Assembly: GCF_019059575.1 (NCBI RefSeq)
Contig: NW_024881611.1
Span: forward strand, 1,023,200 to 1,087,199
From: Amphibalanus amphitrite
Lineage: Eukaryota; Arthropoda; Thecostraca; Balanomorpha; Balanidae
Length of the DNA stretch: 64,000 bases
Direction: 5' to 3'
This document shows, piece by piece, positions 4,173 to 64,000 of the stretch (its first letter is position 1; each line of letters begins with the position of its first letter). The notes beneath the pieces were generated by a model. That model saw only the letters and a program-made list of their open reading frames with translations, was not told where the DNA came from and ran no database searches. The position numbers and the translations under genes were made by a program.

Positions 4173-5974
4173 GGGGCATTCCACGTCAAATCGAACAAAA
4201 ATCGGCTGTTTTGCACCTTACCGTCAGCGATTTCATTATAAATTTGTGAGCGAGTTCCTCTGTGGCCCCGGACATTACATTGATGTTTTTTGCACATTCT
4301 GACCACAGGTCTTCTAAATATAGGGCATCGAATTTTTGCAAAATGTTGCATCTTTATATTTTTGAACGACCATAACTTTGGTTGTACTTGTTTGATTTGA
4401 ATGAAATAAACCTTACTGTTAAGGTAATTTCTTAAGCATTTGTTTAGAATTGCACCTACTTAAATATATGACCTTGAAATTTGCTTAACTCTGTTCTTAA
4501 GCACAAATATTGAAATAGCAAAAAACACGTCACCTTCGATTTGGCTCATTTTCATATATTTTATTGCCTACCATATTCTTAACAACCTGTGAAAAAATTA
4601 GAGTGGGCCATTCATAAGTTTTGAAGAAAATTGCACATATGCAAACGTATGTTAGCACGCGCAGTGGAGGGGGAAGAGCGAATTTCGCCCACCCCTCCTG
4701 TTTTTCGCCAATATTTCATAAGATTAATGCGAAATTAATTATGGCTACCTGTCAAGAATTGAATTGGACATCTCATCGTGCAATCAATAAGAAAATCGGT
4801 TCACAACTGTTCTAGTAATAGCGGTGTAAAGTGAACATCCTGTCGCCGCAGCGACGCGGCGACTCGGCAGCCGGCGCCGACCGCTACGCGCCGCCTGAAT
4901 TGTAGACTGTGCCGGGACGGAACGGAACGGTTCTGTCTTTACATCGCGCTCCCTACCGCTGATTACGTTCGATTCGCGTCAAATTTTGTGAGAAGACTAA
5001 GAAATGTACAGGCAATCTTATGGTGAAAGAATTTTGAAAATCGGTTGGTAAACAATTTAAATATGAACGTGTAAACACAAAATTGTGATTGTTGCGTTTC
5101 CCGCATCGGCCGAGCCCGCCTCAGCCGGCGACATGTAACTCTTAGCAGGCCTCTAGGCTCTAACTGCCATATTTATTATTGGATTAACTAGAAATTCCCC
5201 ATACATACTAAAAAATGTATGTTCTTTCGTATAGTGAAGATCAAAAGACGTGAAGATATCGTTGCGTGATAATGTTTTCGTTGAATTTACTTCATGATGC
5301 ATTTCCACACGGCTCAAAATTCACCGCAAAATACCGTTTGCCTGAGACACTTTTACTATGGAACGTGAATGCTTGACTACGATGAATATGCATTTCCATT
5401 CTCGCAGAGTTTGGGATATCACTAATCAACAATCATTCATTTCAGAAAGTGTACACAAGCAAGCATGTCTTGACTCTGTCTTTCAAGGTCACGCGCGGTT
5501 GCGTGATGTTGATCCATGAAAACGGCGTTTGCCGCGAAAGTTATGAATGGCCCACTCCAATTTTTTCACAGATGGTTAGGAACATTGTGACGGACATAAT
5601 ATGTAAAAATTACCCAAATCGAAGGTGACGTGTTTTTTGCTATTTAAATTTTTCTGTTTTAATTCAAGGTCAAATGCATTTCAAGGTCACTTCAATTTAA
5701 TTTTATAATTAAAATCAAAGCCTTATCAATTGCCTATAAGACCCTGTTAATATTATTTTGATACCAGAAAAGGAACCAGAGTTATAGCCATTTAAAAAAT
5801 TGATGTGTGGCATTTTTCGCTATATTCGATGACCTATATCTCAGCGATACGTTATCAAATTTCGAAAATATTATACGTAACTCAGTTTTGAACCATGCCC
5901 AGTCTGCCTACAAATTTTCAGAAAAATCGAAGGGGATGACGGATTTCGGTGTTTGATTTGACGTGGAATGCCCC
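4173..5974. mobile_element. Non-autonomous DNA transposon, 1.8 kb, copy 1
   Basis: The ends are inverted repeats beginning GGGGCATTCCACGTCAAATC, with the complementary end at 5955-5974. The four bases CTGG flank both sides (4169-4172 and 5975-5978) and look like a target-site duplication. A second copy of nearly identical sequence lies at 59846-62992 and is flanked by a different 4-bp duplication, AGCA, which supports both the boundaries and the 4-bp duplication length. The interior is AT-rich apart from a short GC-rich patch (about 4840-4910) and has no long open frame, so it is non-autonomous. Four-bp duplications occur in Sola, Ginger and Academ transposons, but I cannot assign the superfamily. 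Confidence 0.85.
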
Positions 5975-8900
5975 CTGGATTTCGGCTCGCGGCGGAGCGG
6001 GCGCCGCGGGAGAGTTGGGACCTTGGCAACGGCTGGCTAGCCCGGCGGCTGGCCAGCCGGCCACGCGAGCAGGAAGTCAACAGCCACTCAACGTCGCGGG
6101 TACAAAGACGACCGCCGCCGTAACGTGTGGCTCTCGACACCACGCGATGTTAAACAGACGCCAGCGACGCGACATTTCGCCGCCGACGTGCGCGTCACGC
6201 ATACAGGCCCTCACTCAGCGGTGAGCGGGTAGCTGAGTGAAGGGTTTCACAGTCCTCCCCAGGCGACCAAACAGGCTCGCTTCGGCACAAAATAGTCCTC
6301 TCCATCTCCTAAACTGACCCCGTCATCTCCTCGACATGCCGCGCGGTGAGAAAAGTGACTCGGCCCCGTCCACGAACTGTCTGAGGATGACTAAGTACCG
6401 GCCCGGTGTGACTAAACGGCACAGACGATTACTCAGCGGCCACGATAGTGATCAGGCGTCACAGCAGACAACGACGCCGTGTCCCTCACGGCCTCACCAT
6501 CAACAAGGACTTAACAGCTCTCAGACGGCCATCAAGTATCAACAAAGGCCTCATATCACTCAATACGCCTTGCGCGTGCGTCACTCAATTTGAGTAGGGC
6601 CAACTAACGGAGAGCAAACTAACAAACAAACCTCTCGGCTCTCATAGATTGCAAGATATCATGACACGTCGTGGAACGAGGACGCACTCTAGCTGCTCTA
6701 ATAATGCTAAAGCCAGTCCAAGATCGCGCATACCATTACCTTTCAAACAGCCGCATTCTGTTTGCGTTTCGGCACCATTCTGTCATCCGTCAGCCCCTTG
6801 CACGGCGTCAGCGGGTATTTTCTCACCGAGAGGCGGCGGCGGTGGCTGCAGCTCGCGCTAAGTGCGGACCGCCCGCCTGGCTCGGGCGACTATCAGCCAG
6901 CACGGGCCTCTCGCCGTGTCACGCGAGCTCATAACGGAGCACGGGCACCGCCAGCACCGCCCCTCTGCTCAGATGAGGACGGCACGCCGCATTTACGGAC
7001 AAGAGCAAACAAAAGAGACCGTGAACATGTGGACGAGTTTCACTTACGAAGGACCAGAGACCGAGCTAATAATGTCAAGGAGGTCGGTACAGCGTTTTCC
7101 GGCCGCCAACCCCTGCGCACCGCCCCACGAATACACAGCATTAGACGGTGGGGCCAGCACAGGAGCAGAGGGTAATTAGCGGAAGTGAGTCCCGGTCGCA
7201 TGCAAGCAGGGCGTGAGACACGAGAGCCGAGTAACGTAACATGTAAACGGCCATAATTTATCCGACAGCGTGAGCACTCATATGAGGGAGGGCTTTCAGA
7301 CTAATGAAAATATCGTGTGTTTGTCATCTTATGTCGACCATTTGCCCTCAATGTCACTCCCGTGACCCGACTGGTCCACTCGCGTTCCGTAATCCATATT
7401 AGCACAATGGGCCTCACGTGTTATCTCAGTGCAGTCAGTCATTCATAACGGGGAAAGTCTACACACCCGGCGTGGTTACCGTCGATTATCATCGCAAATA
7501 AAACAGGATAACAGGCCGGTACACGACCCGCAGACACCAGACTCATTTCTCGCGCTGATCGAGCCCGAGTGTTTGCCGAGCTGCCGGGCTCAGTTTGTCG
7601 AACCGGGCGTGCTAATCTCGCCGGCTGATCGGCGTTTCCGGCCCCTGTCTCGGTTCACCGTGTTCTCTCGCGTTTACCCCAGCTCGGGCCGCCGCGCCGG
7701 TCGAATGCGCCAGCCTCTCTGCGTCTCTGAGAGCACGAGTGACCTCGCTGGACACCGAGATCGGCCTTGGGTACGGCCGATGCACCGGAAATGCTGGACA
7801 CCACTGAAACATGAAGGCTCGGCCCGGCGGCGTGACCAGCACGTCAAGTGCACAACCGCCGCGGTGAGACTCCAGTCGGCCTTCGAAACTCACCCACCAT
7901 ACTCCGACAAAAACGCCATCCGATCCGATCGCTCTCAGCGCCAAGAACGGCGAGCATCAAAACGCACGCTATTGACGTTTCATGTACTGGGTCATGGATT
8001 CCACCGTCCAGCACTATTATTGGCGGACCGTCACGTCCACCAGCCGAGTCAGACACACGTTCCAGACAGCACCCCGTCGTGCAGCGCCCGCCGACAATGT
8101 ATGCCATTGCACGGCGCCGACGGCCGCCGGCGCATATATTGCCGCCGCGCCGCGCGTCAATGCCAGCTGATGACGTCACCGTGTCTGACTGGCGAGGCAT
8201 TAGCGGCGCGGATGGCGACTCTTCAGGCACTAATGGCGCAGCTTCACACGGCGCTGGTGGCTGATCTCGTGTCTAAGGCATCGACTAGGCGCCGGGATTC
8301 TGTCACAGATCACCCGGCTTACAGCATTTCCGGGGCTCACCCAGCCTCGGCGCAACGATTTTGCAACTCACTTCATGGAAGTCCAACAACACAAGGACTC
8401 CTGTCCAAAGGACACGGACTCAGGACTTACGCATCAAGCCAATGCAGACTCGGGGACTCTTGGAAGGTCATCTGGACTCTGGAGTGGAGATAGCCGCGCG
8501 TCGAGCGTCGTCTTCCTGTTGTACCCCGACCGTGGCCACTATCTGCCCTGCTTCCGGCGCTGGAGAAGCGTCCCTGCAGGAGCTATGTCCACAGGCCCGG
8601 CCGGGAGGGCTAGGAGACAGGCCCGAACGGACCAGGAGGCAGGCCTGGTCGGGCTAGAACGCGGGCCGGGTCGGAGTAGAATACAAGCCGGCTGACTGGG
8701 CGGTCAGACGCCGAACTCTGGAGTCTCGCTCGAGGCTGACGGAGGCAGTGCTGGAACTGGCGGCAGGGTCGAGGGGCGGAGCTGGCGTAGCGGGGCCGGC
8801 CGGCCAGTCCGGCTGGTGACCGTGGCCGGTATATATCAGTGAACTGTCGGGCTTCCCAGAGCTGACCGCATTCCACGCCGCCGGATCGGTTTCATGAAGC

Positions 8901-30900: not shown

Positions 30901-33900
30901 CTGGCTGCAGCTAGGTTCGGTAGGAGCTATGACACAGCATCACTGAATTCAGCACATCAAGAGCAAACGATGATGGGCTGTCAACCACCCACGCCCCTCG
31001 CCGCACACAAGTAGCCGACGATGAATATAATCAGACATGATATACCGGAGCCCTGGCACCCTCACGACCACTGCATGGCCGCTGCTGCAGCAAAGCGTGG
31101 CACCGCTGCGGATGGGGAGCGCACGTACCGTGACGATATGGACGGGTTCAGCTCAGGTCAAGACGGGGTTTGAGAAAGCTGCCGGATCCATCGGATAACG
31201 GTGGGCAAAGACAGGAGACAGCAGGATTTAGTTGAAACAAGCACTAAAGTCTGACACCAAAACGACAGGTCACCACTGAGATATGAGCTAACAGGATCTC
31301 GCCGTGCTGCTACGAAGAGACAAGCTGGACGTGGCTATTGATCTGCTGCGTAACTGCAATTATCACAGTTAAATTAAATCAACGGCCTAGCCCGTTCGTT
31401 TAACACTGGGCTAAGCGTTAGTAGCCGAACGGATTCTGCACCTCACCGCCTTCATAAAACGGCTGCGTCAGGACCAGAGTGAGGTCATTATCAAGTTGCC
31501 ATAGCACTGCTATGTTCGGACGGCCGACACGTCGTATCAGATGAAATAGTCATACAGAACACGACAGGCTCCGTGCTGTAACCGTACTTTCTTGTTCCGC
31601 GCTGTCTCAGTCAGAATGGCTACAGCGTAGCTGGTATTTCATGAGCTAAAGGAACAGCGGTCGCTGCCGTATGGGTGATGCTAGAGCGGTCTAAGCTGGA
31701 GTTAGGAGTATTTTGCGAAAGCGTCAGCAGGGGCAAGCAGTCAAAATATTGACTTAATGACAAGGCACGGGCAATGGATCAAATTTAATGACGGTCTTCA
31801 TCGTATTCGTCAAAAGTTATGAAAAACAGAATTAATTTCAGCAAAGCACATTATGGCAAGATCAGTTAGAAACTCCCAAGCAAAGCGTCCAATTATGCGG
31901 GACCTACCGTAACATGAGTGGTTCCATCCTGTAATCCCGTATTACCCATCAAAGTTCAGTGCGTCCAGCCCAGTTTCCATGAGGCTCTGCCCCACGTAGC
32001 TCAGTTCCTTATGACTGTCTTTGACTCCCGAGTCTCCAAGCTCTCCCCCCCCCTCACACACACACACATGCCCCTGCCGCACAATGACCCCATGACGTAC
32101 TGTTGTATGTGGAGGGCAGTGTGCTGTGGTCGCGCGTGGCCCATCCCACCGGCGGGTAACCGTGGTACCGGTAATAAAACAGGTCCTCGTCCAGACTGCG
32201 GTTGTGCAGGAACCGAGACGGAGCTGACGAACAGAAAAGTCGGCCGGTTAGACGACACCAAGCCAGCTAGGTTGTTAACATGGATCAGACAGCAAATATG
32301 AGCAGATTTGGCACAGCTTTCCATTTTCCAGCAACTATCCAGATTCAAGATTAAGATATCCGACTGAGCAGAGCTGAATAGCCCAGTCCCCTGTCAAGAC
32401 CGCAGACAATGTCCGGTTCGTCCTGCCCACTCACAGGCGTTCACCGGGTTCTGGTAGCGCATCCCATAGCGGGGCTCCCGGTTGGCGGCCGGGGTGCGGG
32501 ACGTGCTGCGCGGGTCCGGGTGCGTCAGCTGCTGGTGACGCTGCTGCTTCCGCGCCTGCAGGTCGTGCAGGAACACCTTGCCGATGCCGGATGCGATCTT
32601 GGTGAGCTCAGCCTCCTCACGCTGCGGAAAGGACGTCAGTCAGGGACAAACAGGAGCTACACTCGTATCGATTTGTCAATTCGGAGCAGCCATCCCAATG
32701 TCAGGATGGCCGAGCGGTCTAAGGCGCTGCGTTCAGGTCGCAGTCTGGTTCTCCAGGCGTGGGTTCGAATCCCACTTCTGACAGATACTTTTCGCCCGTA
32801 AAGCTTCGAGTACGTGTTAAACCACCATTCAACACAGACCATTCAGACATTTACATTCTGGCAGAATGCCAGGGACCTGCCCATTTTCTTCCTTTCCACA
32901 CAAAACCTCTTTTGATCATCTGAGTCATGACTATTGAGTGGTGGCAGCCAGCAGGCAAACCGCCTCACAAAACGTTTTCGTTCGTGCTTCAATAACGCAC
33001 TGTGGAAATTGGGAACGTCACTCTTCCCAGCCACTTAAAGCAAGTTAATTCTAAGGACGGTACGACACTGCGCCGTAAGGCGACAATAACCGACTCACAA
33101 TCCATTAAAACAGTCACGGTTCCGTGCAGCACAACCATCGTGCTCGGTGCACTGCTTGGCCTCAGTGCCCTTGTAGCTGACACCCGGTATTGACCTAGCG
33201 CCCTCCCCACCCCTTCAACACGGTCGGTGCCACACCCACCTTTAGTTTGGGGTCCTCCTCCCTGTCGGCATCCACCTCGTCCTCGTCGTCGATGACGTCG
33301 TCGGATCGTCCGGACAGCCGCCGGCGCCGCTCGGGGTCCGAGTAGGCGTACGGCGGCGCCGGGAAGTCGTCCCGCTCGATGGCGGCCGGCAGCGACGGGT
33401 TCGGCACCTGCCAGTGGCGTCACAAGGGGACTCAGCGCACAGTCACAGTCACGCGCGGTCACACAGCGGAGCAGCGACGGATGTGTCCTAGGACTGAGTC
33501 GTCTCCGGCCAACCATTTGAAGATCGTGAGATAAACGATTAAATACGTAATATTCTACATGCTCGCACATTGTAAAATGCATGACATATTATCGTGCGGC
33601 GACAGTGGTGGCCACTAGCCATTCCATACTTTTATCATTCAGTGAATGATCATCCTGTACAAAATGTTTCGCTGTCAATCAGTTTATCAGTATCACGTCA
33701 TTCCAACTCCGCTGAATCCGGCAGCGAGCACCAGTCCGTGACATTCGAAAGTCACGTTTATGAAGCCAGAACTGAATGAATATTGAATACAATAGCACAA
33801 CCGATCGCAGCAGCATAGGGTGACTGTGCTTCCGGTGAATCGGAAAAACAATGTCGAAAAGCACCAGAACCCAGAACTTGAACGAACTGCGATACCACAG

Positions 33901-44500: not shown

Positions 44501-47500
44501 GTATAAAAAGTGGTGGCAAAACACCGGCTAAATACGAGACACGTTGGCCGAGCATGACGATGCAGTTAGTCATGTTTCAGCGAACTAAAAATTGAATATG
44601 AATCCCACGGACTCCCAGCCATTACTTCTTCCCGCTCCCATCCACCACAATTCCACCCCTCACATCTCGCGCACCGCGCAGCGCTCACCTCCAGCTCCCG
44701 TCCGTAAGTGAGCAGCTCGTCGAACCGGCTGTCGCCCTTCTTGACGCGAATGGTTGCGTTCAGCGACTTCAGCTGGCGCTCCACCTTTTCCAGGTAGCCT
44801 GCAGCGCAGACGGCAGAGACGTGAGAGTGAAACGGCGTTCTTGTCGCAGGCACAATGCGTGGCGACAGCTCGGCTGTGTGCGATCGGAACATTAAGATCC
44901 CATACAGCACAGAAGCACGAGTGTCCATAATGCTCCATACCATAAAGTTAAATTAGCATGAAGGTTTGGCATGATAAAGCATATGAAACAAAAACTTATA
45001 GGTTCCGGGAAAGACCAACGGCGACGTCCACTCACACAAAGCAAACAAACACTAGTCAGTGATTGGGAGCACATACTGTACGAGTATGTCGTGTTACTTT
45101 TCTGTTGATCTAAATAAGCATCACCCAGCTAACCGACAATCGACTGACCGGGTCACTTTGTGCACCAATCCCCCAATACAGGATGGTAAGTCAGGGTATT
45201 GCAGCTGTCAGTAGAGAGAGAGAACTTGCAATGTTCACAGAAAAACAGCTAGGTACCATAGCCAGCTGGGAAACATCTATAGAAGAACTTACCTGTGCCA
45301 GTGACGATTTCCTTCCAGTCCCTTTCATCCTGGATGAAACGTAGAAAAATCGAGTCCCAAGACAGGATCGGATGTGAAGCTACACGCAGCAAGAAGCTCT
45401 GAAAATATATTCAAATCAAATTGTTGGAACCATCAAATACCGCTGTATGTCATCAGCGCCGTTTAAATGCATGATTATGAGCTAAGACCGACTACCTGAT
45501 ACAGTTACACTACAGAGTCTGCCAAAAATTTCACACTATAATAGCGCTGAACAGCAACTGAACCACAGAATTTCAAGGCGTGTGACAATGACATACATGG
45601 CGTTATTTAACCCTCGCCCGTATAGGGGGGGGGTCGAACGGACCCCCCCCCCCCATGGTTTTTCGCAAATAACTCGCGTAAAAAGCGGCCGATCGCGACG
45701 AAACTTTCAGTACCCTCGCGGTTATCAATTTTACACCTACCCTAAAAATTTCATGACCCTGACCCCAATGACCTTTGACCTGTGACCTACTTTTCGAGAC
45801 CATGTTTGGCCGGAATCGCGATTCGGCGTATGTCGGCTCGCATTAGCCGCGCGTTTGCAGTCTTTTCGTGGTTTCAAGCGTTCAAACATGTGATATGATG
45901 TTGCCCCCATGCATTAGGGTGGGTGTCAAGGTCATCTGAAGGTCAGGTCAGGTCATTGACCTTTGGTGACCTCGGTTCACTTTTTCGAGTTTTACATGTT
46001 TCTAGGCCAGTGTTTGGAGCTGAATTCGAATTTAGCAACCATATGAACATTTACGAAGTAGTTTTGGTGCCTTCGTAACATGTTACGAAGCTGTCACGGG
46101 CGGTTGACACCTACTAGGAATACCCGGCAGGACCCCTACTGGTTGACCTGACCTGACCTGACCCAACCTGGACCTAATGCATAAAGACATCATCTGTGAT
46201 CAAAACTAATATGATATTCGTGATCAGCGCCCCGAAAAACCCCATAGCAGCCACACTTTACGACGTTCTAACAGGTTCCGATTTTCCCGACTTTTGGGTC
46301 ATTGACCTGACCTGCAAGGTCAACCAATGACCTAGGACCTTAAAATTAGGTATCATCGGATTCCTCTCGTCACGGGCAACACGCTCGTTTTTTCCGCGAA
46401 GCTCTAGCTCGATCAGGGGCGAAACGGCAAGGGGGAGGTCCAACGGACCCCCCCCCCCCCCCTTATACGTTCGCGGCTGGAAAAACACCAATACGGGCGA
46501 GGGTTAAGCAGTGCTTGCAATACCACGCCAATAACATGAAAGAAATTGGTTAAACATACTATATCATTGTCAATTCTTTATCATTGACGACGATGTGATC
46601 TCTCGGACGTCTCACCTCCAGTCCAACACGGCGCCGGTCTATGAACTCGGAGTCGAACGGGTCCGTGGCTAGCTTCTGCCAGACGTGCGAGGCGCGCTTC
46701 TCGGGCAGCGGCGGCGTCACCACGTACGGGTAGGCCTCGCCCAGGTAGCCGGCCAGCGTCTCGAACTCGCTGTAGCGCCGCCACAGCGCGCCCTGGCGGC
46801 TCAGCGCGCCGCCGAACGTCGGCTCGGTGACGCGCGTCTCGATCAGGTAGGCCGTGTAGTACTCGGTCAGATTCATCGAGCCGTTGTAGCGCCGCTCTGA
46901 CTCGGACACAGAGATCTCCATCACTGTGCACAGCGGCTCCTGTAAAAGAAACAGCACGCAAGGACCGATAAAGACGGACCATTAAGGATAGCATTTGACA
47001 CAAACCAAACTAACCCGGTCCCGTAGCTCTGTCGGTAGAGCGTTGAACTTCGCGTGGTGAGAGCACGCGTTCCCGGTTATAACAGTCCAGGTTCGAAGCA
47101 CAACTGGCGCTTGACATTTACGAGCCTCCTGACAGGTATGGTTACGGTTGGTGGCAGGCCGTAGCCAGGCGAAGTCAGCGAGGGGGCCCGGGACCGGCTG
47201 TGCGTGGCTACGTGTGCACGTGCCACGTTAAGTTTTACACTCCAAATTCTGCCATAGAACCAGAACTGCGAGATCGGAGGATTGAGGGCAGGGTCAATGC
47301 AACAAGCTTTGCTTAAAGGGGGCTCTGTCCTTGTGAATACTTCCATTCAAAAGGTTTGAACCATTAAGGAGTAACATAAATTTATAAAAGAAGTCACCAG
47401 CTATCACCAGGGATCTTGTATGCCAAGGGCAAAAAATATAGGTAAAAAGTAGCTACATTTTTTTGTTCATAACCAGCCTTAACATATCTGATGGTAACAA

Positions 47501-51187: not shown

Positions 51188-52110
51188 TTAACCCTCGCCC
51201 GCACATGCCATTTTCCCATCCTAGAACGCACATGGGGGGGGGGTGGTTGCCACCCCCCCCCCCCGCGCCATTTCGTTCCTGTTGGAGATAGAGCTTAGCA
51301 GTGAAGACCAAAAAGATTCTTTGGGAAGAGACGAATCCAATGATACCCAGTTTTACCTTCTCAGGTCAGTCATTGACCTTCCAGGTCAGGTCAAACTAAA
51401 AAATGTTGCTGTTTTGGGTCACCGTTGGATATCAAGTGCGCTGCTTATCAAATACCGATGACGATGCTATTTTCTGGTGCCAAGCCAGCTAGAACCTCTT
51501 TGTCACACTATCCGACCAGAATTTTGCTGCTGAGGTCATTTCAGGTCAAGTTAGGTCAAGGTCAATTACATGTGTTTGTATGTCTGTGTGTGTCTGTGTG
51601 TATACTGATGTGTGCACCGATTGTTTTTGGGTCCATATCACATGAAATCATGATCTGAGAAGCTTTTACCAAAAATGCAGTCAAAAAACTTCACAAAAAG
51701 TAAATTCAGCTTGCCTAAAACGCAATTATCTTAGATGACCTAGGTTGACCTTGACCCTGACCTTGACCCCTGTACATCGTCGAACAACATGTTCCATGAT
51801 AGGTGGGAGGTAAGACTGGCAAAAAAGGCCGAAATCAGGGTGTCAAAAGCTCACAAGGCCCATGGCAAACGCAAGATGTTGAGAATTGGCCATTTGGGTC
51901 ATGACATGACCTGAAAAACAAGGTCATATCTCCGAAACCAAAAATCACAGAAACTTGAAATTTTCAGTGGACATCAAGAAAGGATAGACGAGCAGCTATA
52001 CGAAAAATCAGCCTTCTAGCTCTAAAAATGTTGAGTGCAGAGCAGAAAGACTGCCTGGGGGGGGGGGTGGCAACCACCCCCCCCCCCCCCCATGTGCGGG
52101 CGAGGGTTAA
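51188..52110. mobile_element. piggyBac-like MITE, related family (A2)
   Basis: TTAA lies at 51188-51191 and 52107-52110, with termini CCCTCGCCCGCACATG and CATGTGCGGGCGAGGG. The first ten bases equal family A, but the interior is different. Each end again carries a G-run/C-run hairpin (GGGGTGGTTGCCACCCC-type). The interior has AGGTCA repeats. Its left TTAA is shared with the end AATAGGG|TTAA of another, decayed element to the left (about 51003-51187), so two elements abut at one target. Confidence 0.85.
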
Positions 52111-52612
52111 GCGTCATTGTGCAGTGTGGACATGGACAATAACGTGCACAAATGTTTTTTTTTTTTGCGCACGGCGGAGCTGCGTTTCGGTACATGCCCC
52201 ATACACGGACGCACAGTAGCGTACCACAGACAAGGCTTTCATGACGGACCTTGGGATGACATACTCGTAGACTATAGGCATGACTTTAAGCTTTCAGAAT
52301 CCCAGTACATTTACATGACATGATGCCGATGTGAGTTTCAAAGTTGAAATGTGGGTTGAGTCATGAGTGACACTCTAGGATTTTACCACTCCTGAATCTG
52401 GGATGACGTTTGCGTCAAATTTGAGCATGGAACGAGCATTGATGGCGTCCCGATCTCCAACATCTGCGAGAGAATGTATTATTTTTATTTTTACATCGAT
52501 GCCATTGTGAAATGCTCTTGAACTTGTTTTGCTATCTGCTCGACTAATTGTATGTGATATGGTATAGGTAGTGAAATAAAGGATGAACTGACATGACATT
52601 GGGGCCCAGCCC

Positions 52613-55600
52613 ATGCCAACAGCTATGTCTGAACCACCGCCTCTCATGCGGACTGCGTCAGCGACAACGGTAGAACCAAAGTGGCTTCGGGAAGACTCTG
52701 CTGGAAGGGACGAGGAATGGAGTCCGTCAGGGTGTGTGAGGAGGACCCAGAGCGGCTCCTCTCCCGTAGACAGTGGTTCCGAGAGCGTCTTTCAGCCAGT
52801 TGGCAAGGACGAGATCAAGATTGAAGTCCATTCACCAAAGGTAGGTGCACAAATGCATGGTGTTCATTCGTGTTGAGAGTATATTTTTCTGTTGGGTTGA
52901 TATATATAACGGAAATGCAAGTAAGAAATGGGTTTTGATTTTATATCCATAGTGGAATGAACAGTAAAATGTCTTATAGGTAGTTTTGATGACTATTGCT
53001 GGTTTCTTTATTTTGGTCTAGGTTGAGCGGCCGTCGTCTCCCTCGGCGTCGGACGACGATCCTTTGTCAGACCGCGCTGCGCAGTCTCTAGTGAGGAAGG
53101 AAGTGTTCCGGTGTCGGTCGCCGTCACCGTCTGAGGACTTCATCGGGTTCACTGAGGTGGACCGGGACAAGTAAGCAAGGGCATGGCCTAGTGTACCTTT
53201 GTGTTGAAATTCGATCAGGTTTTTTTTCAGACATTGTCCTAGACACAAGAACACCATCTTGCTGACTGCTTATATTCTTTTTTCAGTGCTTGTTACATCT
53301 CCAATGCAAAAAGGAGTCTGTTATTGCGTGACCAGTCGGACATTCGAGACTCTGCGGAAGGCAAGTCGACAGAATTCAGGCAGAAAAAAAAAAAATACGC
53401 AGGTCGCGTCTACCCAGGGGCTCCGCCACTGAGGGGGGGGGGGAGGTGTTGCGTGGTCCATACCTTCCCAATAATTCAGTCCCGTAATGCTGCCTAAATG
53501 TATAATAGAGGTGTCCATTTTTGGGTCATACCCCTTATATTCAGAGTTTCAGACCGTGGCGGAGCTCCTGTTATTGCCATAGTACTATCAGCCTTGCACT
53601 ACTGTATACTTCTCCCAGAGAAATTACCGGTTTGTTATACATATCATTAGATCTGGACGCTGCAAAGAGATTCAATGGTCTGACTGCATTCATTATATTG
53701 AATCGGCACCTTAACTAAATGCAAAACGATCAATTATATCTTATTATTCTATTTTTGCAGTCTTTGCTGAAGGAGTGAGCATCGACAGTCAACGTTTCGT
53801 CATAAACTACCGGGACGTGGCTGGTCTCGATGATGGCAACATATGTGGGTATATCCCTTCCTCTGACCTGTTTCAGCGCCTGCAGGCAAAATTATTCACT
53901 GGTGGCTCTTCGGCTTGTCAGCTTTTCCTGATGATAGGTTGTTAAAGAAAGAATCTGGAAGAGAGGATGACTTTTTAGGTTGAACAAGAACTTCTTGATA
54001 ATGAACGAAAATGTTCTTAAAGTTGCAGTCATAAAAACCATCACAGACACACTTTTACGTCTAATAGAATAGTAGATTCTATTAGACGTAATAGTAATAA
54101 TTTAGTAAATACCTAATCAACTACGCTCTCGATCAAGTCCTTAAGAATCATTTATCATTCGCCCTACTCTCCGACAGTTTGTGACGTATGCTGCCGTGAT
54201 TTGGACGGGGAATGTCGTATCCATGGAGCTCTGAAGGTCATATCCGACACCAAGGTAAGGGACGGGTCGGCTTGGTATTCTCCACACATGTTCATTCAAT
54301 TTTCTTTTATGACATGGGTGGTTGGCTAATTAGACGTCATGCTTATTGCTTAGATCACAAAAGGGTACCAGGGGCATTATAAAGCCTTCGGCGTCTTTCT
54401 GCCTATTGATGTGGCACTATTTATAGATATTGTCTGCGCTGCAGCAGTCTTCAACCAGTCTTGACACACCTAAGCAAGATCAGGTTCTAGGACAGCTCTA
54501 TAGCATATATGTTCGCAAATCATGCTTGACTGATCTTCAAACAGGTCAGGTCCATTCGTACGTTACATCATCCGTGGTCGACGTTTTGCGCTATATGTAT
54601 GTGCGCTTATATTCCAGGCACGACCCGGTATCGGAGATTCCGAAAGGGATGTCAAAACGCTGCCGCCTTCTCTTAGCTCGGCTCAGTCAAGAAATCCAGT
54701 ATCTGGCACCGGTAGGTTGACAAGGCAAAACGATGGCATTACATAACGTACGTTAGTGGACATTGTTGCAAACATGTATTGATGGTGTTTGTTAACCCTC
54801 GCCCGTATAGGGGGGGGGGTCGAACGGACCCCCCCCCATGGTTTTTCGCGAATAACTCGCGTAAAAAGCGGCCGATCGCGACGAAACTTTCAGTACCCTC
54901 GCGTTGATCAATTTTACACCTACCCTGAAAAATTCATGACCCTGACCCCAATGACCTTTGACCTGTGACCTACTTTTCGAGACCATGTTTGGCCGGAATC
55001 GCGATTCGGCGTATGTCGGCTCGCATTAGCCGCGCGTTTGCAGTCTTTTCGTGGTTTCAAGCGTTCAAACATGTGATATGATGTTGCCCCCATGCATTAG
55101 GGTGGGTATCAAGGTCACCTGAAGGTCAGGTCAGGTCATTGACCTTTGGTGACCTCGGTTCACTTTTTCGAGTTTGACATGTTTCTAGGCCAGTTTTTGG
55201 AGCTGAATTCGAATTTAGCAACCATATGAACATTTACGAAGTAGTTTTGGTGCCTTCGTAACATGTTACGAAGCTGTCAGAGGCAGTTGACACCTACTAG
55301 GAATACCCGGCAGGACCCCTACTGGTTGACCTGACCTGACCTGACCCGACCTGGACTAAATGCATAAAGACATCATCTGTGATCAAAACTAACATGATAT
55401 TCGTGATCAGCGCCCCGAAAAACCCCATAGCAGCCACACTTTACGACGTTATAATAGGTCCCGATTTTTCCCGAGTTTTGGGTCATTGACCTGACCTGCA
55501 AGGTCAATCAATGACCTAGGACCTTAAAATTAGGTATCATCGGCTTCCTCTCGTCACGGGCAACACGCTCGTTTTTTCCGCGAAGCTCTAGCTCGATCAG

Positions 55601-57004
55601 GGGCGAAACGGCAAGGGGGGGGTCCAACGGACCCCCCCCCCCATTATACGTTCGCGGCTGGAAAAACACCAATACGGGCGAGGGTTAAACATGTATGATG
55701 GTGTTTGTTAAACATGTATTGATGGTGTTTGTTTTGAGATTGTAAATGCCAGGATATTGTGTGCCCATTTATGTGAAACGAAGGCCATCATCCATTCATT
55801 CTGATTCCAGGAGTCTGGACTGAAAAGGATGTTCCGGCGCGCCAAAGACTCGGTCCTTACGAGGGCACCCTGACCACCGAGCAGGCTCGGGCCCGAACGC
55901 CCGGGTACAAATGGCAGGTTAGTTTGTGATTGCTGTCGAATCTCCATGCGAGTCTGACACTATTCGCTCTTCTGGCAAAACTGTTTTTTTATAAATTTAG
56001 CTCGAATGTTTGAATGGACGGATGGACAGTGCCGGAGCCTACGCTAAGCAGAGCTTGTTGCGTAGACCCCGACCCCTACCGTCCGGTCGCGCAATTCCAC
56101 GCAACGGGAGAATTTAGATGCCAAAGTTTAACGAGCCTTAAAGCCGGACATGGCCTGTCCCACTCAACTGACTTCAACTGGCTGCGGCTGCTCCCACCAA
56201 CCGCAGACCATCCCCGTCAGGAGTCTCAAATATCGAGCGCCGGAGCGACTCGAACCCGGGCTCTCACTACCGGGAGTCCAACGCTCTACTAACTGAGCTA
56301 CGGGACAGTCTGTTATGTTGACTGTTATGCTGGTTTTGTAGTTATATCTCGAACAATAATATAGCTGAAGTTCCATCACTTGAACATTGGCGCTTCTTGT
56401 TTTTATTGTTTGTTTTTTTTTCTTTTTAGTTAAGTAGGCTATAAAAATATCACTAGATAGGAGATAACCAAAAATTGAAATTTGTCTAGGATTGATGTGC
56501 GAATTGTTTTGCATTTCAGATCAGGAAGGGCCAACGCGTGCATCACTTGGTGAATACAGAAGACCCGAGCTGCAGCAACTGGCTCAGAAGGGTCAACTGT
56601 GCCCGCTCAGAGGAAGAACAAAACCTAGTGGCCTTCCAGTACCGGGTCAGATATACTTCAGGTGTGTTGTAGTCTAAAAATCCATGGAAAAAATTCCTAT
56701 CTGTAACGTTTTACATTCTATGTACGTTATTCCTTGCGCCGCCTGCAGCCCTTACCGCTGATTCTTCTCGGTTATCAATGGCTAGTTTTCTTGTCCCAAA
56801 ATGTGCAATGCTTTTATCATTTATTTACATATTCATTATTGCTTTGAAATATATTTATCGACTTTTGCAGGACGTCAAAGCCCATTCCGGGGGGCTCAGA
56901 GCTGCTGGTGTACTACGGAGACGAATCGGCCCGGGAGCTGACCGTCCACTCGGAGACGTCTGGGGAGGCTGTGACCTCCTCTTCCGCCGGACCGTCATCG
57001 TCAG
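52613..57004 (+). CDS. PRDM9-like PR/SET-domain protein, nine exons, frameshifted (partial)
   Basis: Exons: 52613-52840, 53022-53170, 53287-53360, 53761-53844, 54178-54254, 54618-54711, 55811-55917, 56520-56661 and 56871-57004. Phases agree throughout, apart from a one-base shift within exon 8. The middle encodes a zinc knuckle, CDVCCRDLDGECRIH, with C-x2-C-x7-C-x2-H spacing like that before the PRDM9 SET domain. SET follows: GVWTEKDVPARQRLGPYEGT, NWLRRVNCARSEEEQNLVAF and GSELLVYYGDESAREL; this resembles PRDM7/9 more than PRDM11. In exon 8 the frame ending FQY (to 56642) is followed one base short by GQIYFR (from 56645), the frame needed for exon 9. This is a one-base deletion, an assembly error or pseudogene decay. 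Intron 3 uses a GC donor (GAAG|GCAAGT). No KRAB domain is apparent and no C2H2 zinc fingers were found downstream. The start at 52613 is tentative. PRDM9 methylates histone H3 and places meiotic crossovers in mammals; function here is unknown. Confidence 0.85.
54055..54091. repeat. Perfect 16-bp hairpin in a PRDM intron
   Basis: TTACGTCTAATAGAAT is followed by loop AGTAG and its exact reverse complement. It may be a MITE remnant or an intronic RNA hairpin. The stem is shorter than a typical microRNA precursor. Confidence 0.65.
54792..55688. mobile_element. piggyBac-like MITE, family A copy 2 (PRDM intron)
   Basis: TTAA borders at 54792-54795 and 55685-55688, with the same inverted ends and G/C hairpins as 45607-46507, in the same orientation and only slightly diverged. 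It inserted in a 20-odd-bp local repeat (AACATGTATTGATGGTGTTTG), copies of which flank it on both sides and follow at about 55688-55733. Confidence 0.88.
55133..55145. promoter_or_regulatory. IR-1 ecdysone-receptor-type palindrome in MITE copy 2
   Basis: AGGTCATTGACCT is identical to the site at 45950-45962. A second conserved palindrome, GGGTCATTGACCT, lies at 55480-55492. Confidence 0.45.
56003..56306 (-). mobile_element. tRNA-derived SINE, copy 2 (PRDM intron)
   Basis: On the minus strand it begins GTCCCGTAGCTCAGTTAGTA, followed by box B GGGTTCGAGTC, and ends CAACAAGCTCTGCTTAG then TCCATTCAAACATTCG. The head is better preserved than at 47018. The A-box region resembles a tRNA but the 3' acceptor half is absent, so it is a SINE. 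Confidence 0.8.
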
Positions 57005-58595
57005 GTCAGTACCTCGTTGGCGGTTCTGATCATTTGGTATCCATTGAAGGGATCGACCTTGTACTGGCATTCGCCTGTCTTCCGATAGCTGCCGTCTTGG
57101 CCGTTCCGGTTGGTTGGAAGTCTTTATTTTCTGATGGGATCTGATGGAGATCGGGACAGGGGGATACGTCCAAAGAACAACTGGATTAGATGCTAATCGG
57201 AGCATCAGTCTTGCAAGTTAGGTACCATCTACAAATGTTTTGGCGCAGTTCTGAATGTACAACACCGGTAATGCATTGTATTCACCAAGGGGTATAGATT
57301 GGGTTCGTTGAGATGGTATTTCAGCTTGCGATTTAAGCATCGCGTTTGCAGGGGGTCCGATGGACTACCCCGGGTTTTCGGTCATGCCCCCCTCCCCCCC
57401 CCCCCACACACACACACACAAAATCAGCGAAACGCGTAGCTTCATATCTTTGGACACGTTTGATATTTGAGGCTTACGAAAGCAGTGTAGTGTAATAAGA
57501 CGTCCTAAATCATGGCCCATCGCAACCTGAACAGAGGCTTGGCCATGCTGTCATTCCAACTAAAAAAAGACGCCAAAACAAATGGTGAAACAAGCCGTTC
57601 GCCTTCTGAAACACACGCCAGAGCACCTGCACTACCGTAGGTAGACGGGGAAGGTGGTTTGGTCGGATGAGTCGCCGTTTATTATCCGCTGAGTTAGTTG
57701 CATTATCACCTGAACCGTCAAAGGCCGTGTGTGCGTGCGACCAGTAGCTGACGTGCCGGCCGTCACCAGTGTCGAATATCCGGTCTGGATCCAAGTCTGA
57801 GGAGCATGTTGACTGATCAGATGTTTTGCGATGTCCCAGCTGCCTTCCTTTGAAGTCAGATAAAAGCACCATCAAGGAATCAGCGACGAGTAATACCGGA
57901 ACAACATCCTACCCGACGAATGTATAGAGGCGCTCAACCGGAGGGTAGAATAGAGCTTGGTTTCTGAACGTGCATTGATGCCTCATTCAAGTCCAGTGTC
58001 TCAAAAATTTGTCGATTTGGGTGGGACACGATTCCAAATAAAAATAGTTTTCTCCCCCACCTCTAATTTTCAAGCGTAATCTCTTTATCCCATTTTTGCC
58101 CAGAAAGAACATCTGCACGTGTAGTCGAATTACGTCGCATAGGCTACCACTTTTGTGTAGAAGTCTATGCTGTTATCCTTTTTCCACACTTTTTTAGGAG
58201 GGGTCTTATCAGACCAGGAGTTTTCCACTCTCATCCCCCTCAACGGTTATAACTCAACTGAACAGCTGTTAGATACCATTCGTGACCTGAGATGACCTCA
58301 GGAGCATAAACAGGGGTCACGGATACCATTTTCATGCTCAGCGTGTCTAAATTACTTGTAATTCAATGTTTGGGAGTGTTTATAATGGCTTTTGTCCAAA
58401 ACGGGCGCCTTTCAATTTTTCCCCATTGACTTATAATGTGGAGGTCGCAAGATTGACCTGACATCATCGATATCAAAATTCTGAGATAAACATTTTGTAC
58501 ATACTATTGTTCTTAGCAATCGCTGAAAAATTTAAAGCGACGGGTCACTCGGTATAGCTATGGCAGACATTGAATTTTTTATGTGGTGAGGTCAC
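57005..58595. other. Downstream of last visible PRDM exon
   Basis: I searched for C2H2 zinc fingers (C-x2-C-x12-H-x3-H) and further splice-bounded frames and saw none. A poly-C/(CA)n run lies at 57390-57420. The right half (58130-58595) has AGGTCA-type motifs and may be decayed transposon DNA. Confidence 0.45.
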
Positions 58596-59590
58596 TTAAC
58601 CCTATTCCTGGCGGGGGGGGGGCCTCAGGAGCCCCCCCCTGAGGTTTTTTGGTTATTTCTCCCAAACGCGTTGAGCTAGGAAGCTCAAATTTTCTGACTT
58701 TTCCTAAAAGGCTTCTACGCAACATGTCTGAAAATTTTGAGTTGATCTGACCTCAGGTCAGGTCACCAGAGGCGGTTTGGTGACCCTACCTCAGAAAAGT
58801 TTGCAATCACGCCAGAGCTAGAGTTTTTGACCGATCAATTTCTTCTCTTCAGGCTTTAGTTAGGGTACCAGTATGTGCAATTTGTATATCTCGGAATTTT
58901 GATATCGGTGACCTAAGGTCAGGTCAGTTTCGCGACCTCCCCATTATAAGTCAATGGGGGAAAATCAACTCCCTGTTTTTACCACTAAAACGGGTCGGAA
59001 TGGCCCCATATACCATACATGACTTCATATACGATCAACCTTCACTACCTTGAGGTCTGTTTTGCTGTTGGGCAGCTGTGAGGTCATGTGACGTCATCAA
59101 AGGTCACCAAAGGTTTTTGGCCAATAACTCCGTACAGGAACAAGATACAGACGCGTGGATGGTCTCATTGTGTTCAGCTCGTCAAGACGCATCGAATGAT
59201 ATACATGATGACCTCGAGGTCACGTGACCTGAGGTCAACCTTTGACCTTGACCTTTCGAGGTCAACATATATATCATTCGATGCGGATTGACGAGAGGAT
59301 CACGATGATGCCCTTAGTTTGTTCCTATCTTGACTAATTCGAAAGTTATTCGAGAAAAACTCTCCATATCTAGCGCCGCCATTTTGACTTTTTCGACCCC
59401 TGTGACGTCATCTTTGACCTGACCTGAAAATGACCTTAGTAAAAATTGTAGATCTTGACCGTGCGTATCCGATGCCGTTTACCGTTTGTCGCTGCGATGT
59501 GTAGTTTTTGAGATCTGAAGGGGGGGCCGAATCGCCCCCCCCCCCCCGCCAGTTTCTTGTCCCGGCGGAGCCCGCCAGGAATAGGGTTAA
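58596..59590. mobile_element. piggyBac-like MITE, family B
   Basis: TTAA lies at 58596-58599 and 59587-59590; inverted ends are CCCTATTCCTGGCGGG and CCCGCCAGGAATAGGG. Inner G/C-run hairpins and dense AGGTCA/TGACCT motifs repeat the plan of family A with a different sequence. A palindrome AGGTCACGTGACCT near 59216-59229 fuses two half-sites with an E-box. No open frame of note. Confidence 0.85.
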
Positions 59591-59845
59591 GGTAACCTGG
59601 TGACCTGACCTTAAATGAGCTTGGTGTAAAATTTGTTCACCATCTGTAGAATTGATGTATGATAAGATACGCCGCCGTTTTTGAAATATTTGCGAAAAAC
59701 CGCAATGGGTTTGGGGGTGTTCAGACGCCCCCTCCCCAGCAGGGCATGGGTTCATCCATGTGCCAAGGAAAACCTTACCGCGATTGATTCAGCGTGAATC
59801 ATCCCCTCGGTGACACACCCTAATGCGAACCCATATGGGATAGCA

Positions 59846-62800
59846 GGGGCATTCCACGTCAAATCGAACAAAAATCGGCTGTTTTGCAACTTACCATCAG
59901 CGATTTCATTATAAAATTGTGAGCGAGTTCCTGTGTCGCCCCGGACATTACAATGATGTTTTTTTGCACATTCTGACCACAGGTCTTCTAAATATAGGGC
60001 ATCAAATTTTTACAAAATTTTGCATCTTTATATTTTGAACGACCATAACCTTGGTTGTACTTGTTTGATTTGAATGAAAGAAACCTTACTGTTTAGGTAA
60101 TTTCTTAAGCATTAGTTTAGAATTGCACATACTTGAATATATGACCTTGAAATTTGCTTAACTCTGTTCTTAAGCACAAAAATTGAAATAGCAAAAAACA
60201 CGCCACCTTCGATTTGGCTCATTTTCATATATTTTATTGCCTAACTTATTCTTAACAACCTGTGAAAAAATTAGAGTGTGCCATTCATAAGTTTTGAAGA
60301 AAATGGCAGATATGGAAACGTATGTTAGCACGCGCAGTGGAGGGGGAAGAGCGAATTTCGCCCCACCCCTTCTGTTTTTCGCCAATATCATAATATTAAT
60401 GCGAAATTAATTATGGCTACCTGTCCAGAATTGAATTGCACATCTCATCGTGCAAGTAATAAGAAAATCGGTTCACAACTGTTCTAGTAATACGGTGTAA
60501 AGTGAATATCCTGTCGCCGCGGCGACGCGGCGACTCGGCAGCCGGCGCCGACCGCTACGCGCCGCCTGAATTGTAGACTGTGCCGGGACGGAACGGAACG
60601 GTTCCGTCTTTACATCGCGCTCCTTACCGCTGATTACGTTCGATTCGCGTCAAATTTTGTGAGAAGACTAAGAAATGTTCAGGCAATCTTATGGTGATTT
60701 TTTTTTTAATCGGTTGGTAAACATTTGAAATATGAACGTGTAAACACAAAATTGTGATTGCTGCGTTTGCCGCGTCGGCCGATCCCGCCTCAGCCGGCGA
60801 CATCTTACTCTTAGCAGGCCTCTAACTGCCATGTTTATTATTGGATTAACTAGAAATTCACCATACATACTCAAAAATGTATGTTCTTTCGTATAGTGAA
60901 GTTAAGAAGACGTGAAGATATCGTTGTGTGATAATGCTTTCGTTTACAGGGTGCCCCATAAGTTCGTTCTCACATTATGTTTGCATGTGAAACAGAGTAC
61001 ATTGCGTTTTAATATATTTATGACCCCTCAATATGCTCCTCATTTAATAGGCAAACACATGAATACATGCTGCAGCATGCCAACCGGCATGTTTGGCTGC
61101 AAAGTAGGCTTAACCCAGACTGACTTGACATGCGCCGTGAGCTCCTCGAGGCTGGAACAGCGCTACGCTTCGACGAGCCTCAATTTCAGCATAACCAACA
61201 AATTTTTATGAAATTTTGATCCAATGAGGTGCCTGGCATGTGATCTTGCCACAAATGCCTGTCACAGTCTCCTTGCACCGCTTTTAAGCTTTGCTTGACC
61301 TGTGCACTGATGCACTGTCTTGCCTGAAGATGGGCCTACGGGCTACGACCTCCCGGATGCCATTTTCTCCTCTATAAATATGTTCATACTCGCGGTTTGA
61401 GTTCAGCTAGAGGGCTGAAACTCCTCCTAGATGTTCTTGGAAAAGCATTCTGCTTCCCAAAACTGTTTCTGGGTTGCCACTTGCAACTTGGTCAACTCCA
61501 GAACGCCTATAATCCCACAACACAGTGACCCTGACCTTTTGCATAGGAACATAACGGGACGTAACGGAGGCCTCCTCCTTCGCCCTTATGGGGTTGTTTT
61601 CGGGTTTGGACGGGTGTTTCCTTTCCAACGTGGACTAGTTAGTCCTGATGACCTGGTTGATGTCATCAGCCCTCTGTTTTGTTTAGCCTCAGGCATAACG
61701 AAACTCATGTTTGGCCATTTTAAGACGTTTTTGACTGTTTTGAGCCCTCCGGTAAGCAAAGCTTAAGTCACCTTGAGTTATGTACCCCGAAAGAACACTC
61801 TTAGACAGCTGGTAATCCATCCTGAAAAGTCTGCTTACCAACTTTGTAACCCTTTGACCTTTTTGATGGCCACTTTGGCGCCACACAGTTTTGGCCACTT
61901 GGCTCAATCCTGAGGGCTGACTGGAAAGAGGATAAACTTGCAGTGACTGACTCCCGACAAATCATCGGTGTCACTTGCTGACTGTGCGTCCAGTTAGCGA
62001 TGGACATTGGCTACAGACTGGTAGGCCTCAATCACCCTCAATCGTCGCGAATGGTCACGTGCTGACTAAATACTGAGACGTACCCGTATCGGAGACCTCT
62101 ATGTTGCAGCGTTAGCCGTCTCTGTAGGAAGCGGGCTCTATAGCAAAAACTATTTTGTCTACAGAAGTTAGCTACTGTGGAGCATATTTTTACCAGCCAT
62201 GGCAACCACGTAAGCTCAGTTACGAACCAATTTCAGCGTGCTTTTAAGCAAGAGAGCCTAAAAACGTAAAATTTAGGTGAGAACGAACTTATGGGACACC
62301 CTGTAATTTACTTCATGATGCATTTCCACACGGCTCAAAATTCAACGCAAAATACCGTTTGCCTGAGACACTTTTACTATGGAACGTGAATGCTTGACTA
62401 CGATGACTATGCATTTCCATTCTCGCAGAGTTTGGGATATCACTAATCAGCAATCATTCATTTCAGAAAGTGTACACAAGCAAGCATGTCTTGACTGTCT
62501 TTCAAGGTCACGCGCGGTTGCGTGATGTTGATGCATGAAAACGGCGTTTGCCGCGAAGGTTATGAATGGCCCACTCCATTTTTTTCACAGATGGTTAGGA
62601 ACATTGTGACGACATAATATGTAAAAATTACCCAAATCGAAGGTGGCGTGTTTTTTGCTATTTAAATTTTTCTGTTTTAATTCAAGGCCAAAGGCATTTC
62701 AAGGTCACTTCAATTTAATTTTATAATTAAAAATCAAAGCCTTATCAATTGCCTACAAGACCCTGTTAATATCATTTTGATACCAGAGAAGGAACCAGAG

Positions 62801-62992
62801 TTATAGACATTTAAAAATTGATGTGTGGCATTTTTGGCTATATTCGATGACCTATATCTCAGCGATACGTTATCAAATTTCGAAAATATTATACGTAACT
62901 CAGTTTTGAACCATGCCCAGTCTGCCTACAAATTTTCAGAAAAATCGAAGGGGATGACGGATTTCGGTGTTTGATTTGACGTGGAATGCCCC
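59846..62992. mobile_element. Non-autonomous DNA transposon, copy 2, carrying a nested insertion
   Basis: Same inverted ends as 4173-5974 (GGGGCATTCCACGTCAAATC and complement), with AGCA duplicated at 59842-59845 and 62993-62996. The sequence is collinear with copy 1 except for small indels and one 1.36-kb insertion at 60947-62303. Without the insertion the length is about 1.79 kb. Confidence 0.9.
60947..62303. mobile_element. mariner/Tc1-like element, decayed, nested in another transposon
   Basis: 27-bp terminal inverted repeats start CAGGGTGYCCCATAAGTTCG (one mismatch between ends). TA flanks both sides (60945-60946 and 62304-62305), and the empty site in copy 1 (near 5282) confirms insertion. 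The 1,357-bp length equals a complete mariner. No intact transposase survives; short minus-strand frames are interrupted by stops and shifts, so a decayed transposase is only suspected. Confidence 0.85.
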
Positions 62993-62996
62993 AGCA

Positions 62997-63951
62997 GCCT
63001 AACGGCTGCTCCATTTGCGCGGCACGGATTGCTGACCGATCACATTTCACCAGACAACTGGCGTACCGACTGTAGAGACCGACACAGCAATACTAAATGC
63101 CGGATCACCTTCTTTCACCATTGCATATGTCAGCAGACAGGGGCGGGGAGCTACACGGCTGTGCTATCTTCCCGGTGCGTTTTTCAGCAACAATGTAGGA
63201 TCATGCTGCTCGTCATCACACACTACTACTGTTTTATGCGGTTAATATCGATCCACTGGGCTGCGCTGTTGTGTTATCAAGCTTATACATGACCACGATT
63301 TTATATCTGAAGTTGGTATGGAGACTTCAACTGTAACACCTTTTTACATTTTGTGTTGTGTGATATCAAATTTGTATGCGCTCTGTTTTGGCTGCTTTTT
63401 ACTGGTGACATTTTAATATCTTGTCTTCAGTTGAAGGGAAAATAAGGTTCAAAAGTGTTTATTGTAAAAGTGTTGACTGAAGCTTCAATTTACCCCGTAT
63501 CCGTGGTCAAATGTAATAGTGCAAGGGGTCAGATGTTGCAATTACAAACAAAGGTGGTTTACAATGCAACATGTGTATTCTGGCAAATAGGATTGATTAC
63601 CAATAAGAGGATTGTTGTCATAAATGCAGTTCGAGCCAAAGCGGAAGCCTTCTTCGCTTTACATAATTAGCTTTTTAAAAACAGAAAGGCGAAAAAGGTC
63701 CTGTGGACGGATATGTGAATGGAATGAAACGCTCAATGAAACCTCCAAGAAACGCTCATAGCTGGTTTTACCTAGCCTTAGTTCAGAAACACGGCACAAG
63801 TCAATGGTTTTGGTCGCACGACAATTCCTTGCCTCTACAGCGGTTTGGGGTAGAGCTCGTTCGATCGTCTGGGGAGTTGGCCGTTTCTTTTTCACTCTAC
63901 AGGGTGATTTTTTTACTTGTTAAAAAGTAATGAGGTTAAACGGCGCTAAAA

Positions 63952-63954
<3 letters not shown>
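62997..63954. other. Right-end unique DNA without a recognised gene
   Basis: Open frames such as 62981-63292 and 63455-63670 (+) are short, lack domains and have no splice support. Nothing else was recognised. Confidence 0.4.

Positions 63955-64000
<46 letters not shown>
63955..64000. repeat. (TA)n microsatellite at the window edge
   Basis: A nearly pure AT dinucleotide run extends to the end of the window; its full length is unknown. Confidence 0.95.

Follow-up and report, generated by a model that had tools for sequence, protein, structure and literature searches.

A PRDM9-related methyltransferase head with a probable repertoire of alternative 3′ zinc-finger arrays in Amphibalanus amphitrite

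The stretch of DNA analysed here, 64,000 nucleotides of contig NW_024881611.1 of Amphibalanus amphitrite (assembly GCF_019059575.1), is called the window. At 52613-57004 on its plus strand lie nine exons that encode the head of a PRDM9-type protein: an N-terminal part in which no known domain is recognised, followed by a zinc knuckle and by a PR/SET domain spread over three exons. These exons form the constant 5′ part of a unit that belongs to a large gene family related to PRDM9, and we consider it probable, judging from the genomic DNA, that this methyltransferase head is served by a repertoire of alternative 3′ exons encoding arrays of C2H2 zinc fingers. The head would be spliced to one array at a time, the arrays being alternative 3′ terminal exons, and one histone methyltransferase would thereby be steered to many DNA sequences. 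Its SET domain would mark lysine 4 of histone H3 (H3K4), and perhaps lysine 36 (H3K36), at the sites bound by the fingers, as in PRDM9; the likeliest use of the system, by a small margin, would be to choose meiotic recombination sites with a repertoire instead of one motif. PRDM9 with fast-changing fingers and heads of the mod(mdg4)/lola type are each known already, and it is their combination that appears to be new here. No report combining a PRDM9-type head with many alternative finger-encoding 3′ exons was found in the open-licence literature.

An earlier, sequence-only reading had placed the head close to PRDM7/9, and this placement is supported. The motifs it relied on, VNCARSEEEQNLVAF, LLVYYGDE and a C-x2-C/C-x2-H knuckle (CDVCCRDLDGECRIHG), are all present at the places it gave. 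The knuckle, in exon 5 (54178-54254), aligns with that of PRDM9; it stands immediately N-terminal to the PR/SET domain, in the same order as in PRDM9, and the alignment with PRDM9 runs end to end. With the queries translated in the frame of the overlapping contig C138 (described below), the joined PR/SET domain matches Pfam PF21549 with an E-value of 1.6e-38. Among solved structures, knuckle plus SET scores 137 bits with PRDM9 (well above what chance would give), 71 with PRDM11, and 67 with PRDM1, and the SET-based scores, again for solved structures only, are 126-137 bits to PRDM9 versus at most 71 for the remaining PRDM families. A search of NCBIfam, whose library consists of prokaryote models, gave no match. 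A phylogeny of the SET domain had been named as a check: the trees place the head in one group with PRDM9, PRDM11, and a further gene of the same genome, on contig C161, with weak support (79/91, 60/89, and 61/90). In approximately unbiased (AU) tests, holding the head with PRDM9 alone gave a p-AU of 0.255.

The catalytic tyrosines of human PRDM9 are Y276, Y341, and Y357 (Baker 2017). By alignment, with places counted by eye, the equivalents of Y276 and Y357 are present in the window head, the former in exon 7 (PR/SET part 1, GVWTEKDV...GPYEGTL..., 55811-55917) and the latter in exon 9 (PR/SET part 3, containing LLVYYGDE, 56871-57004). The triad is complete in each of three family-B copies examined (GQMYYR), as it is in the C161 gene (IWYRT). 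This second PRDM9-like gene, present as L001 (C161:218659-222012) and L002 (C56), has an uninterrupted knuckle-SET frame with three catalytic tyrosines; no fingers were found in the 7.4 kb of C161 examined, 4 kb of it downstream. The earlier reading had also taken the host to be a probable arthropod, rightly so, since the genome yields at least 150 matches to R&R cuticle proteins (the best 150 of 705 candidates) and 14 control genomes yield none. A query with the barnacle cement protein 20k, run with no positive control, gave no match.

The window reaches the last base of its contig, C114, and it lacks a finger array because the contig ends there. Contig C138 matches window positions 51530-63364 at 99.65% identity (98.5% over the last 0.64 kb of the window), with 26 gap openings and 7 mismatches over 11.8 kb, and then continues. 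Relative to C138, the VNCARSEEEQNLVAF exon (exon 8, PR/SET part 2, NWLRRVNCARSEEEQNLVAFQY.., 56520-56661) is short of one G near 56647, so that beyond ...AFQYR the window copy is out of frame, and its codon 342 is a stop. In the C138 copy the nine exons keep an open frame over 363 residues, ending in phase 1. Of the 60 SET-exon matches genome-wide, 58 extend to the end of the query; the two that fall short are the window copy and one fragment. The likeliest cause of the frame break is a sequencing or assembly error near the contig end, a null allele being the less likely one.

As the earlier reading had said, the window itself shows no array: its six frames contain 21 loose and 2 strict C2H2-like strings, none of them array-like for this family by eye, and the start of the 3′ intron (57005-64000) is array-free up to the contig end. 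That reading had left a choice between fingers lying far downstream and a different DNA-targeting module. The first has proved correct. On C138, no fingers appear up to 976000; beyond that, four C2H2 arrays start at 977711, 979543, 986193, and 998621, on the same strand as the SET exon at 962989 and 14.7-35.6 kb beyond it. The second suggestion is not supported. The frames of arrays 1-3 hold 5, 14, and 14 finger matches, and the array exons, on C138 and elsewhere, are tandem C2H2 repeats of 84-bp units. An AATAAA or ATTAAA word occurs within 1 kb 3′ of the array in four of the seven examined, which is without evidential value.

When the window SET exon is searched against its own genome, it finds 60 places: 35 of family A (77-100% identity), 21 of a sister family, B (65-71%), and four others, of which two are the copies of a third gene (C161/C56), one is a retrocopy, and one is a fragment. 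For the arrays, a search for array starts (best 150 of 1712 candidates) and one with a narrower query (best 150 of 205) together list at least 167 starts, a lower bound for this assembly. An array was counted as linked when it lies downstream of a SET on the same strand with no opposite-strand element in between; by this definition, 110 listed arrays are linked to family A and 21 to family B; 1 belongs to the retrocopy. The two families are organised differently. Among 32 family-A units, six listed arrays were found in one, five in five, four in ten, three in ten, two in three, and one in three, so that 29 of the 32 have two or more; each of the 21 family-B units has exactly one. Three family-A SETs have no listed array, including that of the window, whose contig ends. 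Within family-A units, the arrays lie about 0.8-109 kb from the SET on the same strand, and on contigs with a family-A SET, 127 of 139 listed arrays share the strand of the nearest one. Open frames of at least 200 amino acids are found in 74 of the 78 listed arrays that are not the first of their unit. Multiple arrays per head occur on C352, C998, C1144, C192, C138, C195, and C276; the description as one head per array set is based on the count of SET exons and on the copies read. Contig C276 (197359-325515) also has fourteen array exons on one strand, for which no upstream SET was found before opposite-strand arrays are reached; these are either orphans or belong to a head too diverged for the query.

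We examined the acceptors of 30 array exons: 20 from units on C352, C192, and C1144, the four of C138, those of L009, L011, and L012, and three of family B; 22 of them are non-first and 5 are first arrays of family A, and 3 are of family B. In all 30, an AG lies 17-20 nucleotides 5′ of the first cysteine codon, and the two bases left over complete the SET donor of exon 9 (TCA G followed by gtcagt, phase 1 in the C138 frame). A decayed intronless copy, L020 (C150:594000-603999), preserves at its positions 5566-6650 parts of exons 7-9 joined to an array; exons 8 and 9 abut (5856/5858), and exon 9 passes into the array start with one base more than predicted. This retrocopy junction means that head-array splicing has occurred once.

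Contact positions were taken as -1, 2, 3, and 6, and arrays 2 and 3 of C138 were compared over their first five fingers, other pairs over four. For arrays 2 and 3, the nonsynonymous and synonymous values (dN/dS) are 0.12/0.51 outside the contacts and 0.58/0.40 at the contacts. The corresponding values are 0.11/0.19 and 0.49/0.65 for arrays 2 and 4, and 0.11/0.56 and 0.35/0.46 for arrays 3 and 4. Within arrays 2 and 3, the ratio of nonsynonymous to synonymous differences among fingers (pN/pS) amounts to 1.38 for contact positions and to 0.38-0.45 for the rest. In arrays 2 and 3, the structural sites seem to be under constraint and the DNA contacts to have diversified. In family B, L016 and L017 differ at 15 of 24 contacts and at 11 of 154 positions elsewhere (Fisher test, 2e-9); the other comparisons among the three arrays give 17 of 24 versus 16 of 202 and 9 of 24 versus 5 of 154, the last fingers of the longer pair being entered as "elsewhere". 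Rapid change of contact residues, as in PRDM9, is therefore clear in family B and between C138 arrays 2 and 3, and weaker or absent in other comparisons.

Upstream of the knuckle, the two N-terminal pieces match no Pfam family, in agreement with the earlier remark that no KRAB domain is visible. Elsewhere in the genome, a zf-CW exon on C122 (with a second copy on C433) scores 37.8 bits with ZCWPW1 and 26.8 with MORC4 among solved structures, and the frames just 3′ of it jointly match the PWWP domain with an E-value of 2.5e-12. ZCWPW1 is a reader of PRDM9 marks (PMC12828234), which in mammals are trimethylated H3K4 and H3K36 (H3K4me3/H3K36me3; Baker 2017). Because its zf-CW exon is nearest ZCWPW1 and is followed by PWWP pieces, the C122 gene (L048-L050, C122:706125-712403) may be ZCWPW1/2-like and is a candidate reader of PRDM9-type marks in this genome. 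In Penaeus vannamei, a PRDM9 gene is seen in the ovary but not in eyestalk or hepatopancreas (PMC11048709).

A number of observations weigh against the interpretation as a PRDM9-related head with alternative arrays. The use of several arrays by one head is predicted from DNA. As to the head, AU tests at 0.05 do not reject groupings with PRDM11 (0.081), PRDM1 (0.066), or PRDM2 (0.125), and phenylalanine occupies the place of Y341 both in the family-A copies read and, in the C138 frame, in the window head. Profiles of KRAB and SSXRD matched nothing, whether in the exons or across the genome, but the control searches were likewise silent. Loss of the hotspot role has been linked to the lack of these two domains, and in swordtail fish a PRDM9 that lacks them does not direct recombination (Baker 2017). 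As to the arrays, 35 of the 167 listed have no linked SET. The counts are inflated by haplotype copies, and the haploid number may be about half of 167 because the assembly seems to carry both haplotypes of many places; the lists, being of best-scoring matches, also under-represent decayed arrays. A frame break divides array 4 of C138 into parts with 5 and 8 finger matches, and the contig end cuts it short. The tract 5′ of the array acceptors is weak, with 7-10 pyrimidines in 15, and one of the 30 exons, C192:256340 (L042), has an in-frame stop right after the acceptor and before the first finger. The retrocopy offers a single junction, and by eye its array resembles the head-nearest type of L011 and L012. 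At contacts, dN does not exceed dS in two of the three C138 comparisons (2 versus 4 and 3 versus 4). Finally, the share of diversity that falls on contacts in family A is modest, 0.25 over 55 pooled fingers versus 0.17 if it were even (L009, 0.31; L011, 0.28; L012, 0.31; three C138 arrays, 0.22, 0.22, and 0.19).

The alternative that survives best accepts the same architecture and gives it another role: it would recognise repeats or transposable elements, or regulate genes, in an arms race like that of KRAB zinc-finger proteins. We regard this as a serious possibility, short of an even chance. The heads and arrays outnumber the 6 to 14 PRDM9 copies of salmonids (PMC11703093), the KRAB and SSXRD domains went undetected in those same searches, and changing contact residues fit an arms race too. 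On the other hand, the head is nearest to PRDM9, whose mammalian marks were named above, it retains the Y276 and Y357 equivalents, and a ZCWPW1/2-like gene is present. It is because of this kinship of the head and of this gene that recombination would be, by a small margin, the likeliest function, ahead of control of repeats or genes.

Another alternative, which we think unlikely though well worth keeping in view, is that only the array nearest the head is used and that those lying further away are remnants of tandem duplication, decaying or serving as donors in gene conversion. The clusters must indeed stem from tandem duplication, and the stop in L042, the broken frame of C138 array 4, and the head-nearest look of the L020 array start are all as this explanation would have it. 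It accords poorly, however, with the open frames of the non-first arrays (74 of 78, in a list that favours good matches), with an AG and phase kept in 22 of 22 non-first acceptors, and with the purifying selection at structural sites in arrays 2 and 3 of C138. Moreover, the nearest array is sometimes the shorter one: C138:977711 has 169 amino acids versus 417 and 554 further on, and the open frame at C1144:67993 has 132 versus 449, 271, and 435.

It appears improbable that the head belongs to PRDM11 or to another PRDM family. Such groupings do survive the AU tests, and PRDM11 has a knuckle too. The PRDM9 score is about twice that of PRDM11, however, and arrays diversified at their contacts are a trait of PRDM9; membership in PRDM11 was set aside on its score, half that of PRDM9. 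Least credible of all is that the clusters are mostly an assembly artefact of haplotypes and near-identical tandem copies laid out repeatedly, as the haplotype-like agreement of contig pairs C8/C391 and C467/C836 in score and order and the excess of gap openings over mismatches between C138 and the window might suggest, for the C138 arrays are unlike one another at many sites and in how many fingers they have, which a duplicated assembly cannot produce, and multi-array heads recur on the seven contigs listed above.

The proposed repertoire can be set beside several known systems. It shares with PRDM9 the order of zinc knuckle, PR/SET, and a tandem C2H2 array carried by a single 3′ exon, together with fast contact residues; it differs in having several array exons per head and dozens of heads, in that KRAB and SSXRD were not detected, and in the phenylalanine of family A at the Y341 place. 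PRDM9 with fast-changing fingers occurs in cnidarians, molluscs, and annelids (Nematostella, Lottia, and Capitella; Oliver 2009). The salmonid genes also form a family, with truncated members, and likewise have a SET over three exons and an array on one; their array is described as one exon per gene, and there are far fewer copies (PMC11703093). In mod(mdg4), shared 5′ exons are followed by many alternative 3′ regions, mostly zinc-finger (FLYWCH), and lola is named as a second documented example (PMC4667647). The same plan is found here: behind one 5′ head stand several DNA-binding 3′ exons whose acceptors are compatible with it. The head in mod(mdg4) and lola is of BTB type, whereas here it is a knuckle-PR/SET with N-terminal pieces that match no Pfam family. 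Some 3′ exons of mod(mdg4) lie on the opposite strand (PMC4667647). Neither gene is known to have long tandem C2H2 arrays. KRAB zinc-finger genes likewise form large clusters in tandem, and the contact residues of their arrays change; these clusters differ in having one effector domain per array, and the repressor KRAB where SET stands here.

The remaining parts of the gene are as follows. Donors are GT in seven of its eight introns and GC in one, and the acceptor is AG in all eight. Exon 1 (52613-52840) runs from the first ATG to ...EIKIEVHSPK, with donor gtaggt in phase 0; it has relatives in L009, L010, L011, L012, L014, and L021, and weak ones in L016 and L017. Exon 2 (VERPSSPS...TEVDRD, 53022-53170; donor gtaagc) has relatives in further family-A copies. 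Exon 3 (ACYISNAKRSLLL...DSAE, 53287-53360) has the GC donor (gcaagt) and is 100% identical to the C138 copy. Exon 4 (VFAEGVSIDSQRFVINYRDVAGLDDGNI, 53761-53844) and exon 6, the linker to the PR/SET domain (ARPGIGDSERDVKTLPPSL..., 54618-54711), have relatives in further copies. All lie on the plus strand.

Three stretches of about 0.9 kb each, at 45607-46507, 51188-52110, and 54792-55688, the last within the intron that separates exons 6 and 7, have inverted ends (TTAACCCTCGCCCG...CGGGCGAGGGTTAA) whose exact limits were located, and AGGTCA/TGACCT words are abundant in them; in appearance they are non-autonomous DNA transposons. Between exons 7 and 8 the intron holds, on the minus strand at about 56010-56310 (by eye), a sequence like a tRNA-derived short interspersed element, also found in the C138 copy, on which ARAGORN makes no call. 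Upstream of the gene, a PX-domain open frame (PF00787; 46559-46981, minus strand) is probably a sorting nexin exon, and a tRNA-Leu (CAG) gene lies at 32699-32784 on the plus strand.

What would the proposed architecture mean for recombination? PRDM9 is known for a single fast-changing array which eliminates the very sites it targets, the so-called hotspot paradox. We put forward, as a tentative possibility that falls short of an even chance, that dozens of SET heads combined by splicing with alternative arrays provide, to an order of magnitude, a hundred DNA specificities for a recombination mark. If this is true, the loss of any single motif by erosion would hardly matter. Many arrays per head in an arthropod would then offer a natural way to test whether the hotspot paradox is relieved by a repertoire, and whether PRDM9-type steering can work without KRAB and SSXRD. 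If, alternatively, the job of these proteins is control of repeats, they would be a SET-based counterpart to the KRAB zinc-finger clusters.

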